Source: Pseudomonas lalucatii (GTDB taxonomy: Bacteria > Pseudomonadota > Gammaproteobacteria > Pseudomonadales > Pseudomonadaceae). From it: DNA of 64,000 bases. How positions within the stretch are numbered: the stretch's first letter is position 1; each line of letters opens with the position of its first letter. Made by a program: the position numbers and the translations under genes. Below are positions 53,719 through 63,192 of the stretch, in pieces. The notes beneath the pieces are model-generated. The model did no database searches. It was not told the DNA's origin and saw only the letters and a program-made list of their open reading frames with translations. The stretch is from positions 1,984,001-2,048,000 of the forward strand of contig NZ_JADPMV010000001.1 in NCBI RefSeq assembly GCF_018398425.1. Reading direction: 5' to 3'.

Positions 53719-53743
53719 ATGGTATACCACACACCATAATACG
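53719..53743 (-). promoter_or_regulatory. GntR-type operator of the BCCT gene (1.5 sites)
   Basis: ATGGTATACCAC (53719-53730) is 11/12 of the palindrome ATGGTATACCAT, and ACCATAATACG (53733-53743) reproduces the outer half of the site. Read toward the transporter, the order is CGTATTATGGT, a three-base spacer, then TGGTATACCAT. It lies about 123 bases upstream of the start codon. Confidence 0.7.
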
Positions 53744-53849
53744 GTAAACCCATTCTGCACCCTGCGCTAAACGCTCTGACGCAACCGCCCGTGGCCCCGT
53801 TACGCCACCTCCTCTTGCCCCCAGAACTATCCGACGGAGCGTCGTCTAG

Positions 53850-54842
53850 CTAGCGCGCTCCGATCAGCCATTGGTTGAGAAAGAAGCCGCCGACGATCAG
53901 CAGCAGGAACAGGATCAGCGCCAGCACCATGGGCCCGGCCCCCGCCTGACGGATCGTGCTCCAGCGCGTCTGCACGCCGAGGGCGGCCATGGCGATGGCC
54001 AGGGTGAACTGGCTGACCAGCTGGATGACCGGCATGGCGGCCGGCGGCAGCACCTGCAGGCTGTTGATGCCGGCGGCGGCGATGAAGCCCAGGACGAACC
54101 AGGGGATCACCAGGCTAGCCGCGCCCTCGCCGTCACCGCCGCCGCGGCGGGCGAGAAAGGTACTGAGCAGCAGGATGAAGGGGGCGAGCATCATCACCCG
54201 GATCAGCTTGACCACCACCGCCGCCTGCAATGCCTCGCCGCCCACTGCCTCGCCGGCGGCGACCGCCTGCGCCACCTCGTGCACGGTACTGCCTATGTAG
54301 ATGCCGAAGGCCTGCTCGCTCATGCCGGAGAACTGGTAGATCAGCGGGTAGCTGAACATCGCCAGGGTGCCGAACAGCACGACGGTGGCGATCGCCACCG
54401 TGACATGCTGCTGGCGCGACTTCAGCACCGACTCGGTGGCCATCACCGCCGCCGCGCCGCACACCGCGCTGCCCACCGACGTGAGGATGGCCACGTCGCG
54501 GTGCAACCGGAACAGCCGCGTACCGAGCAGCGTGCCGACGACGAACACCGTGCAGATCACCACGCCGTCGAGCAGCAGGGAACGCCAGCCGACGGCGGCC
54601 AGCTGCTGAAAGCTCAGGCCGAAGCCGAACAGGATGATGCCCAGGCGCAGCAGGCGCTGCTGGCAGAAGCGGGTGAAGGCGACTTCCCGCGGCGAGGCGA
54701 CGGCGCGGCGGCAATGGCCGACCAGCATGCCCATGACGATCGCCAACGGCAGGGCGCTCAGGCCGAACCGCGCCACTTCCGGGATGGCGGCGACCAGCAG
54801 AGCACAGAGGGCGATCAGTGGCAGAACGATGCGCAAGGACAT
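53850..54842 (-). CDS. yeiH: YeiH/UPF0324 family putative exporter
   Basis: Membrane protein of 330 residues with about ten helices; the family segment LLRLGIILFGFGLSFQQL and the conserved ILTSVGSAVCGAAAVMA are present. Annotated elsewhere as a putative sulfate exporter, not proven. It is divergent from a LysR gene (about 105 bases) as yeiH is from yeiE in E. coli. Confidence 0.85.
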   Translation of the reverse strand: MSLRIVLPLIALCALLVAAIPEVARFGLSALPLAIVMGMLVGHCRRAVASPREVAFTRFCQQRLLRLGIILFGFGLSFQQLAAVGWRSLLLDGVVICTVFVVGTLLGTRLFRLHRDVAILTSVGSAVCGAAAVMATESVLKSRQQHVTVAIATVVLFGTLAMFSYPLIYQFSGMSEQAFGIYIGSTVHEVAQAVAAGEAVGGEALQAAVVVKLIRVMMLAPFILLLSTFLARRGGGDGEGAASLVIPWFVLGFIAAAGINSLQVLPPAAMPVIQLVSQFTLAIAMAALGVQTRWSTIRQAGAGPMVLALILFLLLIVGGFFLNQWLIGAR

Positions 54843-54947
54843 GGCGACGGACCCGGATGATGGCGATGCCGACAGCTTCGAGCCCTGGAAAAATTAAGTA
54901 TATTGGATATATTTTATCTTTCTCTTAAGCAGAAACGAACATTTATC

Positions 54948-55841
54948 ATGAACGTCAACATCCGCCAGCTGAAGATCTTCGAGGCCACCGCACGCCTGGG
55001 GCGCCTGACCCTGGCCGCCGCCGACCAGTCGATCAGCCAGTCCGCCGCCAGCCAGGCGCTCAAGGAGCTGCAGGGGGCGCTGGGCTATCCGCTGTTCAAC
55101 CGGGTCGGCCGGGAGCTGGTGATCACCCAGGCGGGGCGCCAGGTGCTGCCGCAGATCAGCCAGATCCTGCAGCTGGTCGACGGCCTCAGGTCGCCGGACC
55201 CGGCCGCGCTCAGCGGCACCCTGCGGGTCACCGCCAGCGTCACCATCGCCTGCTATCTGCTGCCGCGCCTGCTGGCCGAGTTCGGCCGCCGCCACCCCGC
55301 CGTGGAGCCGGCCCTGGCCATCGCCAACACCAGCGAGGTGCTGGCCCAGCTGGAAAGGGGCCAGGCCCACGTGGGCCTGATCGAGGGGCCGGCCCTGCAT
55401 CAGCGACTGCAGGTCCGCCCCTGGCGCGAGGATCACCTGGAGGTCTTCTGCCACCCCGAGCATCCGCTGGCCCGCCGCGGACGGCTGGACATCGCCCAGA
55501 TCGCCGAGCAGCGCTGGGTCCTGCGCGAGCCCGGCTCGGGTACCCGGGCGATCTTCGATGCCGCGGTGCAGCAGCTCGGCGCACAACTCAAGCTGGCCCT
55601 GGAACTGAACCGCCAGGAGGCGATCAAGCAGTCGGTCAAGGCCGGCCTCGGAATCGGCTGCCTCTCGCAACTGGCCATCGCCGAGGAGGTCGCGGCGGGC
55701 GAGCTGGTCATCCTGCAGACGCCGATGAACCTCAGGCGCCGCCTGTCGCTGGTGACCCAGCCCCGGGAGCTGAGCAGCACCCTCGGCCAGGCCTTCAGCG
55801 ACTTCCTCGGCGCCGCGGAGCCCACCCCGCCGGGCGCCTAG
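54948..55841 (+). CDS. LysR-family regulator (YeiE-like)
   Basis: LysR protein of 297 residues with the HTH in IFEATARLGRLTLAAADQSISQSAASQALKELQ and a substrate domain related to CysB-type proteins. It is divergent from the YeiH-like gene; the spacer contains an AT-rich TATTGGATATATT that could be its site. The ATG at 54948 is used; an in-frame start at 54903 would overlap that AT-rich segment. Confidence 0.85.
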   Translation: MNVNIRQLKIFEATARLGRLTLAAADQSISQSAASQALKELQGALGYPLFNRVGRELVITQAGRQVLPQISQILQLVDGLRSPDPAALSGTLRVTASVTIACYLLPRLLAEFGRRHPAVEPALAIANTSEVLAQLERGQAHVGLIEGPALHQRLQVRPWREDHLEVFCHPEHPLARRGRLDIAQIAEQRWVLREPGSGTRAIFDAAVQQLGAQLKLALELNRQEAIKQSVKAGLGIGCLSQLAIAEEVAAGELVILQTPMNLRRRLSLVTQPRELSSTLGQAFSDFLGAAEPTPPGA

Positions 55842-55944
55842 CCCATGCCCGCCGAGGCTGCGCCGGCGCGACTCCGGCGGCCCCGGCCCGAGCGCCTCCC
55901 GGCCCATCGCCGGGGGCCCCTGCCGTGCCGGGATTTGCATGTCT

Positions 55945-55962
55945 CGTATTATGGTATACCAT
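55945..55962 (+). promoter_or_regulatory. GntR-type operator of the catabolic operon
   Basis: CGTATTATGGTATACCAT, identical over 18 bases to the site upstream of ribB. Its last 12 bases are a perfect palindrome. It lies 53 bases upstream of the first gene of the operon (ATG 56015), consistent with direct repression overlapping the promoter. Confidence 0.78.
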
Positions 55963-61499: not shown

Positions 61500-62252
61500 A
61501 TGAAACGCCTGCCTCTCGACGATAGCTTCAAGGTCAATCGCAACCCCGTTACCCTGCGCGAAATCGTGCTGGATAAACTGCGCAGCGCCATCATGAACTT
61601 CCAGCTGCTGCCCGGCGACCGCCTGGTCGAGCGCGACCTCTGCGACCGCCTCGGGGTCAGCCGCACCTCGGTGCGCGAAGCCCTGCGCCACCTCGAGTCC
61701 GAGGGCCTGGTGGAGTTCGCCGACGCCCGCGGCCCGCGGGTGGCCATCATCACCCTGGAGGACGCCCGCGACATCTACGAGCTGCGTTGCGTGCTCGAGG
61801 GGCTGATCGTCCAGCTGTTCACCCTCAACGCCAAGGCCAAGGACATCCGCGCCCTGGAACGCGCCCTGGAGGAAAACCGCCGGGTGCTCGAGGAAGGCGA
61901 ACTGCAGCAGGTGCTCGACTCGGTGCAAGGTTTCTACGACGTGCTGCTGGAAGGCTCGGGCAACCATATCGCCGCCACCCAGCTGCGCCAGCTGCAGGCA
62001 CGCATCAGCTACCTGCGCGCCACCTCGGTGTCGCAGACCAACCGCCGCGGCAGCAGCAACCAGGAGATGGAGCGCATCGTCGCGGCGATCAAGAGCGGCG
62101 ACCCGCTGGCCGCCCACCAGGCCTCGGTGGACCACGTGCGCGCCGCCGCCAAGGTGGCCCTGGACTACCTCAGGTCCAAGCAGGACGAGAGCGCCACGCC
62201 CCGCGAGATCGCCACGCCGATCGCGCTGAAAGACCCGCGCATAGGGCGCTGA
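61500..62252 (+). CDS. GntR-family (FCD/FadR-type) transcriptional regulator
   Basis: Regulator of 250 residues. The N-terminal winged helix has [33 protein letters not shown], and the C-terminal FCD domain is all helical ([36 protein letters not shown]). It is the best candidate to bind the ATGGTATACCAT palindromes at 53.7, 55.9 and 63.2 kb: GntR members favour such TGGT-N-ACCA symmetric sites. The effector is probably a pathway intermediate. Confidence 0.9.
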
Positions 62253-62256
62253 GGCC

Positions 62257-62820
62257 ATGCCCGCCCCGCGCTTCTGCCCCCAGTGTGGCACCGACCGCCT
62301 GAGCCGCCGGGTGCCCCCCGGCGACAGCCATGAACGGCTGATGTGCGCGGGCTGCGCCTATATCCACTACGAGAACCCGAAGATCATCGCCGGCTGCATC
62401 ATCGAGCAGGACGGCAAGTACCTGCTGTGCCAGCGCGCCATCGCCCCGCGCCCCGGCACCTGGACCCTGCCGGCCGGCTTCATGGAGAGCGGCGAGACCA
62501 CCGAGCAGGCGGCCCTGCGCGAGGTGTGGGAGGAGACCGGGGTGCGCGCCGAGATCGTCTCGCCCTACTCGATCTTCAGCGTGCCGAAGATCAGCGAGGT
62601 GTACATCATCTTCCGCGCCGTGGCGGTCGAGGTGACCGGCAGCTTCGGCCCGGAAACCCTCGACTACCGCTTCTTCGCCCCCGAGGAGATCCCCTGGGAG
62701 AGCATCTACTACCCGGCCATCCGGCAGATCCTCGAGCGCTACATCGAGGAGCGCCAGGCGGGGGTCTACGGCATCTACATCGGCAACGACGACAGCGGCA
62801 GGGTGCACTTTATCCGCTGA
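62257..62820 (+). CDS. NUDIX hydrolase with N-terminal zinc ribbon
   Basis: Protein of 187 residues: zinc ribbon CPQC...CAGC at the start, then the Nudix box [22 protein letters not shown]. Such zinc-ribbon Nudix enzymes cut NADH-, ADP-ribose- or FAD-like pyrophosphates. It starts four bases after the GntR stop, so it is cotranscribed with it; an FAD-recycling role would fit the extra riboflavin gene, but is inference. Confidence 0.85.
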
Positions 62821-62852
62821 GGCCGCCGGTCTTCCGCGGCCGGCCGGCGCGC

Positions 62853-63146
62853 TCAGGGCGCGCAGCCCTCGACTATGATCACCTCGACGACCGCCGCGCC
62901 CTGGCGGTGGCCACAGGCCTCCTGGTACTCCGGCGAGTTGTAGCAGGCCAGGGCCTGCTCGTAGGAAGCGAACTCGATGACCACGTTGCGCGGCGGCGTC
63001 GCCCGCCCCTCCAGGGCCTGGGCGCGACCGCCGCGGGCGAGGAAGGTGGCGCCGTACTTGGCGAACGCCGCCGGCGCCCGTCGGGTGTATTCGCCGTACT
63101 GCTCGGGGTCCGTCACCTCGACATGGGCGATCCAGTAAGCCTTCAT
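62853..63146 (-). CDS. DUF1330 family protein
   Basis: Small ferredoxin-like-fold protein of 97 residues ([25 protein letters not shown] and [23 protein letters not shown]), the DUF1330 pattern. Its function is unknown; the family has no established enzyme role. It is transcribed divergently from ribB, with the palindromic operator between them, so both may be controlled together. Confidence 0.82.
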
Positions 63147-63172
63147 CCTGCCTCCGCTATTCGTCAGTTATG

Positions 63173-63192
63173 CGTATTATGGTATACCATAA
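63173..63192 (+). promoter_or_regulatory. GntR-type operator between DUF1330 and ribB
   Basis: CGTATTATGGTATACCAT at 63173-63190, the same 18 bases as the operon site at 55945; extended by AA it contains the perfect 16-bp palindrome TTATGGTATACCATAA (63177-63192). It is 47 bases before the ribB start codon and 26 bases from the DUF1330 start. Confidence 0.78.

Follow-up and report, generated by a model that had tools for sequence, protein, structure and literature searches.

A palindrome conserved across proteobacterial classes marks a probable GntR/FCD regulon, most likely for trigonelline catabolism, in Pseudomonas lalucatii

Trigonelline is an abundant betaine of plants and phytoplankton, and its catabolism in Acinetobacter baylyi is said to have been assigned to tgnA-E by Perchat in 2018. 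Opening of an N-heterocyclic ring by a luciferase-like monooxygenase (LLM) fed by a reductase is also known from the Rut pyrimidine operon, with RutA as the LLM and RutF as the reductase; the Rut regulator belongs to a family different from the one considered here. Among local repressors of the FadR subfamily, UxuR, HypR, MdcY, and PrpR use sites with a 2-nucleotide spacing, according to PMC4494728. Here, we analyzed a 64,000-nucleotide stretch of the Pseudomonas lalucatii genome (contig NZ_JADPMV010000001.1, positions 1,984,001 to 2,048,000; the window) in which a palindrome recurs upstream of a BCCT-family transporter gene, a catabolic operon, and a RibBA gene, with a GntR/FCD regulator gene embedded among these targets. 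An earlier reading of the letters alone (the sequence-only reading) had proposed a single regulon with a single operator, regulated by the embedded GntR protein, a proposal supported by the comparison of 80 related loci, 248 genomes, and a set of distant clusters. The computational comparison establishes that the sites exist, are restricted to the locus, are conserved, and are coupled to the GntR gene. We consider it highly probable, on this comparative evidence, that the GntR/FCD protein binds a site close to GTATTATGGTATACCATAATAC, represses at least five promoters, and is released by a pathway ligand.

Exact copies of the 18-mer CGTATTATGGTATACCAT occur at 55945-55962 and 63173-63190, the only two in the P. 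lalucatii genome, and a near copy with an extra half-site, ATGGTATACCACACACCATAATACG, occupies 53719-53743. The sequence-only reading had named all three places and put them 45 to 125 bases from start codons; the measured operator-start distances are 122 bp for the BCCT gene (GTG 53596), 52 bp for AA_synth, the head of the operon (ATG 56015), and 49 bp for RibBA (ATG 63240). At up to one mismatch, ATGGTATACCAT occurs at five places in the 4,583,128-base genome, all within 13.5 kb (C1:2037719 to C1:2051262). Three of them lie inside the window, at 53719 (BCCT), 55951 (operon), and 63179 (RibBA). The other two, with one mismatch each, lie past the window end, at 64560, before a second flavin reductase gene, and at 67251, in the gap between a chemoreceptor gene and an LLM gene; the sequence-only reading had the transporter, operon, and flavin gene right and missed these, at least two target promoters. 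A whole-genome scan did not find the palindrome dispersed among unrelated promoters: of nine perfect matches to TGGTATACC, six fall in the regulon locus, and the three outside it as well as two of the local ones are one-sided. The sixth local place (68589) has a weaker core and precedes the gene for an orphan PotD-like binding protein (SBP). A reversed control pattern of the 18-mer had no occurrence in the whole genome. A lone one-sided TGGTATACC at 25922, outside the regulon, is probably a chance occurrence.

The predicted operators and the genes of the locus, typed with Pfam and NCBIfam models at their cut-offs, are listed below; features past the window end are given in positions of locus L003, where position p is window position p+62499.

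52025..53596, minus strand: BCCT-family transporter (PF02028 and TIGR00842 above cut-off)
53719..53743, unstranded: predicted operator of the BCCT gene, ATGGTATACCAC core and separate outer half ACCATAATACG
55945..55968, unstranded: predicted operator of the catabolic operon, CGTATTATGGTATACCATGAGACC
56015..56605, plus strand: operon gene 1, AA_synth (DUF1185) family (PF06684; PDB relatives 2qtp and 3byq)
56631..57464, plus strand: operon gene 2, alpha/beta hydrolase, candidate for a TgnD-like role (PF00561)
57461..58942, plus strand: operon gene 3, aldehyde dehydrogenase (ALDH), TgnC-like (PF00171)
58975..59460, plus strand: operon gene 4, flavin reductase (FlR1), candidate for a TgnA-like role (PF01613)
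59540..60991, plus strand: operon gene 5, succinate-semialdehyde dehydrogenase (SSADH), candidate TgnE-like (TIGR01780 above cut-off)
61016..61405, plus strand: operon gene 6, carboxymuconolactone-decarboxylase family (CMD) (PF02627; PcaC model slightly below cut-off)
61430..61470, plus strand: hairpin resembling an intrinsic terminator, with a T tract, at the end of the operon ahead of the GntR gene
61500..62252, plus strand: GntR/FCD regulator, proposed palindrome binder (PF00392 62.7 bits, PF07729 82.7 bits, both above gathering)
62257..62820, plus strand: NUDIX hydrolase, adjoining GntR (PF00293)
62853..63146, minus strand: DUF1330 protein, divergent from RibBA (PF07045)
63173..63196, unstranded: predicted operator between DUF1330 (minus) and RibBA (plus), CGTATTATGGTATACCATAAAACC
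63240..64000, continuing to window-equivalent 64349, plus strand: RibBA paralogue, flavin supply (NF009132 above cut-off)
L003 2160-2645, past the window: second flavin reductase (FlR2)
L003 2745-4691 (window-equivalent 65244-67190), minus strand, past the window: dCache chemoreceptor (MCP)
L003 4902-5945, past the window: LLM
L003 6155-7177, past the window, behind LLM: PotD-like binding protein (SBP)

To follow the palindrome beyond P. lalucatii, the best 80 of 339 GntR relatives in the genome scan were taken as loci, L030 (gamma proteobacterium) and L079 (Paucimonas) being the only ones not titled Pseudomonas. Genes were matched at ≥60% identity, with the start within 15 residues and 350 bp available upstream. 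The core GGTATACC was found upstream of AA_synth in 75/75 cases, RibBA in 54/54, BCCT in 7/7, MCP in 3/3, and FlR2 in 48/54, as well as 18 of the 48 LLM genes, which often stand directly behind FlR2, and 1 of the 31 SBP genes. It was found upstream of none of the remaining genes: GntR (0/79), NUDIX (0/80), hydrolase (0/78), ALDH (0/79), FlR1 (0/78), SSADH (0/23), and CMD (0/67). In total, 205 of the 212 core sites in 1,587,437 bases precede target genes. Six of the other seven lie no more than about 165 bases from a locus end (L013, L024, L041, L066, L070, and L089) and are unassigned because the gene there fails the matching rule or falls outside the stretch, which leaves a single core site without an assigned gene (L015, site 11580). 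Gene order is rearranged between species, and the site travels with its genes. The idea that the 18-mer is a chance or nonfunctional repeat, which has the small size of the motif and nothing else in its favor, is already refuted as stated and has a negligible probability: over 100 shuffles, matches to the 18-mer at up to three mismatches averaged 0.00, and its position is kept upstream of the same genes across the 80 loci and in other classes.

The co-occurrence of palindrome and regulator was counted in a family sample of 248 genomes, with GntR called at an E value of ≤1e-70 and the motif represented by the 15-base pattern TNTTAYGGTATACCA. GntR was present in 58 genomes and TNTTAYGGTATACCA in 61; the motif was found in 58/58 genomes with GntR and in 3/190 without it. 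In one GntR-negative, motif-positive genome (G396), both sites lie inside coding frames. Another genome, G370, is GntR negative at this threshold, yet it carries a 38% identical GntR and an exact palindrome that TNTTAYGGTATACCA misses. AA_synth is present in the same 58 genomes and in G370, and the 248-genome count alone therefore cannot separate the regulator from its targets. We turned to 27 distant loci from the hit lists, comprising L121 to L133 (13 loci) and 14 of the 325 plasmid records with an LLM match (L136 to L149); a class-wide LLM scan (6/369 genomes at an E value of ≤1e-100) served only to supply distant loci. L134 and L135, both of which carry the palindrome, were left out as closer relatives. 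AA_synth is present in 23 of the 27 loci, and ATGGTATACCAT was sought within 300 bp upstream of it. A GntR relative (36 to 77% identity, ≥114 bits) was found in 18 of the 23, and ATGGTATACCAT was found in all 18, in 10 exactly, in 4 with one mismatch, and in 4 with two; L127, L144, and L145 are mutually close, and the 18 loci are not all independent. Between 0 and 9% of random 300-bp windows drawn from these loci reach an equally good match. Three other clusters carry a PucR-type regulator instead of GntR, and their best sites have 5 (L126), 3 (L147), and 5 (L149) mismatches, while an Arthrobacter cluster (L139) with a GntR of only 30% identity (83 bits) has a best site with 4. The remaining locus, L125, holds a second AA_synth copy (78%), near 9786 and away from the cluster, in a genome with GntR elsewhere (G453); a two-mismatch site, ATGGCATACCGTATTACG, starts 50 bp upstream. 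The palindrome is thus tied to this GntR, because distant clusters that have the regulator have the site and clusters with another or a far more distant regulator do not.

Several points weigh against this reading. The distant loci were selected manually from lists of hits, and the presence of the target genes is a confounder in the co-occurrence of motif and GntR. The contrast that separates the two draws on only four clusters with a different regulator, and one further GntR-less locus, L125, has a two-mismatch site, which we explain by the GntR elsewhere in its genome. Two mismatches within 300 bp occur in about 1 to 9% of random windows, and each of the four two-mismatch cases is weak singly. 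Among the relatives, the exact core is missing before 6/54 FlR2, 30/48 LLM, and 30/31 SBP starts, and the SBP site of P. lalucatii itself (68589) is weak, with 14 of 22 letters of the full palindrome described below.

The clusters with the PucR-type regulator (L126, L147, and L149), which lack the palindrome, form a second cluster type, with an LLM of 44 to 46% identity, a reductase, an ALDH, and a hydrolase. CMD is annotated in L147 and L149, and in G395, this type coexists with the GntR type. One Acinetobacter record labeled a plasmid, NZ_CP077849.1, measures 3.66 Mb, a size that suggests a mislabeled chromosome.

In the window, a YeiH transporter gene and a YeiE-like LysR gene (53850-55841) stand between the BCCT and operon operators. 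In the seven BCCT-bearing relatives that passed the matching test, BCCT and the operon are divergent neighbors with two operators between them, and L121 and L135 show the same layout. Because BCCT and the operon adjoin in relatives and the YeiH/YeiE pair is inserted in the window, the LysR at 54948 is probably a passenger rather than the regulator; the sequence-only reading had not recognized it as part of an inserted YeiH module. That the palindrome serves some other regulator, such as this LysR (54948-55841) or another GntR protein of the genome, is very unlikely, even though the LysR gene lies directly upstream of the operon's operator and a first look gave 34 GntR-family candidates in the genome. 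The LysR adjoins YeiH, and its nearest model is YeiE, with a score below the cut-off; across the 80 loci, where the sites persist, no LysR match passes the 60% rule. The genome's other GntR matches are 25 to 29% identical, and of all the regulators compared, the embedded GntR is the only one whose presence follows the site from genome to genome.

The embedded protein, already called GntR/FCD in the sequence-only reading, is placed there by Pfam as well (PF00392 and PF07729), and its N-terminal winged helix and C-terminal FCD domain are those of the FadR subfamily. The operator TGGTATACCA fits the palindromic TKGT/ACMA class with a GT-AC spacing of 2. According to PMC4494728, this GT-2nt-AC spacing is found in several FadR-subfamily sites, and Arg28 favors TGGT, with G as the preferred letter of the TKGT box. 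The window protein and the aligned site-bearing relatives all have Arg28 and Arg38 in the helix-turn-helix, while the Arthrobacter GntR, from a cluster without the site, has Ala28. Residue 40 was considered as a predictor of TGGT and rejected; it is Ser in Pseudomonas and Val in distant relatives that keep the site. The system shares the TGGT-N2-ACCA class and spacing with UxuR, HypR, MdcY, and PrpR and, with FadR-subfamily catabolic repressors generally, an FCD domain, a gene beside its targets, and a catabolic role. It differs from them in its genes, presumably in its ligand, and in including a flavin biosynthesis gene. In the light of the distant clusters, the GntR/FCD protein (61500-62252) is very probably the ligand-released repressor of the regulon.

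The operator is longer than the 18-mer suggests. In Acinetobacter locus L140, GTATTATGGTATACCATAATAC is a perfect 22-bp palindrome, which the P. lalucatii sites match at 21 (RibBA), 20 (operon), 18 (FlR2), 17 (MCP/LLM), 15 (BCCT), and 14 (SBP) of the 22 positions. The motif CGTATTA was considered as only a -10 box, and this was rejected; the sites of Acinetobacter, Rhizobium, and Azospirillum have both outer arms, and CGTATTA is therefore better read as the outer half of the 22-bp palindrome. The sequence-only reading had missed these outer arms, along with the likely pathway. Among the Pseudomonas loci, conservation is stronger in the upstream arm than in the downstream arm for AA_synth, RibBA, and LLM (left, 6.2 to 6.7, and right, 3.2 to 5.4, of 7) and slightly so for FlR2, with the reverse for BCCT. 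TTGC precedes the AA_synth and FlR2 sites with 88 to 97% conservation, and the P. lalucatii AA_synth and FlR2 promoters read TTGCAT-N16-TACCAT, with the presumed -10 ending inside the palindrome; no comparable promoter box was seen before RibBA. Given a presumed -10 inside the palindrome at these two promoters, occlusion of the promoter is the favored mode of control, and we infer repression rather than activation.

It is unlikely that the same GntR protein is an activator, or activates some promoters and represses others. FadR-subfamily proteins can activate or repress, which counts for such a role, as does the better-kept upstream arm, a bias that a symmetric repressor would not need. However, the operator overlaps the presumed -10 region, and the nearest starts of AA_synth and RibBA are 28 to 60 bp away from the core, as would suit the favored repressor.

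Trigonelline is probably the substrate of the regulon, judging from the gene set and the names of relatives. The LLM, flavin reductase, ALDH, hydrolase, and SSADH genes that occur together at the locus make up the gene set expected of the tgn pathway; as enzyme types, the two-component monooxygenase of LLM and flavin reductase, the ALDH, the hydrolase, and the SSADH recur in A. baylyi tgnA-E, a pathway cited in PMC8269262 and PMC11354265. PMC8269262 states that TgnA/TgnB open the trigonelline ring and argues that they are unlikely to act on homarine, and PMC11354265 lists TgnB as a luciferase-like enzyme. Unlike in A. baylyi, the genes are distributed among at least five promoters, together with BCCT, RibBA, the chemoreceptor, and a duplicate reductase. 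With the Rut operon, the common ground is ring opening by a reductase-fed LLM; the RutF and RutD models score far below cut-off, and none of the typed genes is RutB, RutC, or RutG. Among the best 120 relatives listed for each protein, at least four LLM relatives (75 to 80%) are named flavin-dependent trigonelline monooxygenase, oxygenase component, by JGI, and at least two ALDH relatives (71%) are named (Z)-2-((N-methylformamido)methylene)-5-hydroxybutyrolactone dehydrogenase. An Acinetobacter baumannii relative of the LLM is 51% identical, and an A. baumannii record combines relatives of AA_synth, hydrolase, reductase, LLM, ALDH, SSADH, and CMD with GntR and a perfect 22-bp palindrome. A relative on the Sinorhizobium plasmid pSymA, located between noeB and nifT, comes with ATGGCATACCAT and a GntR match of 41%. 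Trigonelline, stachydrine, and carnitine genes of an R. species reportedly figure in the title of a 1991 paper.

Not all of these data point to trigonelline. In the same best 120, at least five ALDH relatives are called carnitine dehydratase, and most names of LLM and ALDH relatives are generic or absent; the Sinorhizobium meliloti GntR frame is unannotated, departs from its relatives near the end, and may be broken. The regulon might serve another N-methylated or cyclic betaine, e.g., homarine, which we regard as a somewhat unlikely alternative. The carnitine dehydratase names would fit it, as would a BCCT carrier that has no substrate-specific model above cut-off and the presence of CMD, DUF1330, AA_synth, and chemoreceptor genes to which no role is assigned. 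Against it stand the trigonelline-step names of the LLM and ALDH relatives, the position of the pSymA relative and the 1991 title, and the argument that TgnA/TgnB are unlikely to act on homarine. The preferred substrate remains trigonelline.

The FCD domain bears on the ligand. In metal-sensing FCD domains, the His residues of the (F/L)H and EH positions bind metal. The window protein has FY and EM there, lacking the His residues that mark metal sensors. Of the four structures whose alignments reach these positions, 7xp0, 7u5q, and 3sxy have both His residues (FH/LH and EH) and the fourth, 3ihu, has FY and no EH, so that their absence is less special. Every aligned site-bearing relative carries Tyr at the first of these positions, and His is absent from the second in all of them, although L131, L141, L142, and L143 have His one column before it; the Arthrobacter GntR keeps both. 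A metal-free FCD pocket would be compatible with a betaine ligand, which is only a lead.

The chemoreceptor gene (L003 2745-4691) has its operator in common with LLM, and chemotaxis to the substrate may belong to the regulon. In PMC10104139, on amine receptors, the dCache_1AM domains titrated with trigonelline are reported to show no binding.

The flavin gene downstream of the palindrome, called ribB in the sequence-only reading, encodes a fused RibBA. Two further RibBA genes in the genome are 61% and 52% identical to it, and the copy at 63240 is therefore a paralogue with its own operator. A 12-mer of the palindrome stands 32 bp from the start of the divergent DUF1330 gene, which may therefore be coregulated with RibBA. 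The stretch around the terminator-like hairpin (61420-61475) folds at -23.5 kcal/mol (z -4.6). Behind the SBP gene, the open reading frame list, with no profile search made, contains no ABC permease; a similar binding protein stands behind RibBA in relatives. The possibility that a sequencing adapter lies at L003 6013, where the protein begins MCIRDR, was rejected; the DNA there differs from the adapter.

In the proposed model, a GntR/FCD dimer would sit on the palindrome, over the promoter, and would repress the BCCT transporter; the AA_synth-hydrolase-ALDH-flavin reductase-SSADH-CMD operon; the dedicated RibBA, probably with the divergent DUF1330; the second flavin reductase; and LLM, with the chemoreceptor on the other strand. 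Binding of an N-methylpyridinium betaine, which we infer to be most likely trigonelline, or of a breakdown intermediate to the FCD domain would release the protein. Its release would jointly induce uptake, chemotaxis, flavin mononucleotide supply, ring opening, and conversion to succinate. By title and the start of the abstract, no GntR regulator of trigonelline catabolism was found among the literature matches listed, from a search that most subscription journals lie outside; two of these matches, PMC10104139 and PMC12482172, contain both trigonelline and GntR. By title, none of the 20 papers listed, of 30 that contain the letters of the palindrome, concerned bacterial gene regulation. In the actinobacterial cluster on the Arthrobacter plasmid pDCT5 (L139), a riboflavin kinase and a cytosine-permease-type carrier stand beside the LLM monooxygenase. 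This riboflavin kinase is under a different GntR, and the coupling to flavin may therefore have arisen more than once.

The system is of an ordinary kind, a local FCD-repressor regulon, that is well supported, conserved across classes, and wider than first reported. Tentatively, at close to even confidence, we suggest that the operator marks an alpha-, beta-, and gammaproteobacterial regulon under a His-less FCD branch that responds to an N-methylpyridinium betaine, or to the product of its ring opening, and couples breakdown of the compound to uptake, chemotaxis, and flavin synthesis. The 22-bp operator offers a DNA pattern for finding the pathway in unannotated genomes, and operator and candidate regulator are directly testable and could provide parts for a sensor. 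The membership of RibBA suggests a catabolic repressor that controls its own cofactor supply.

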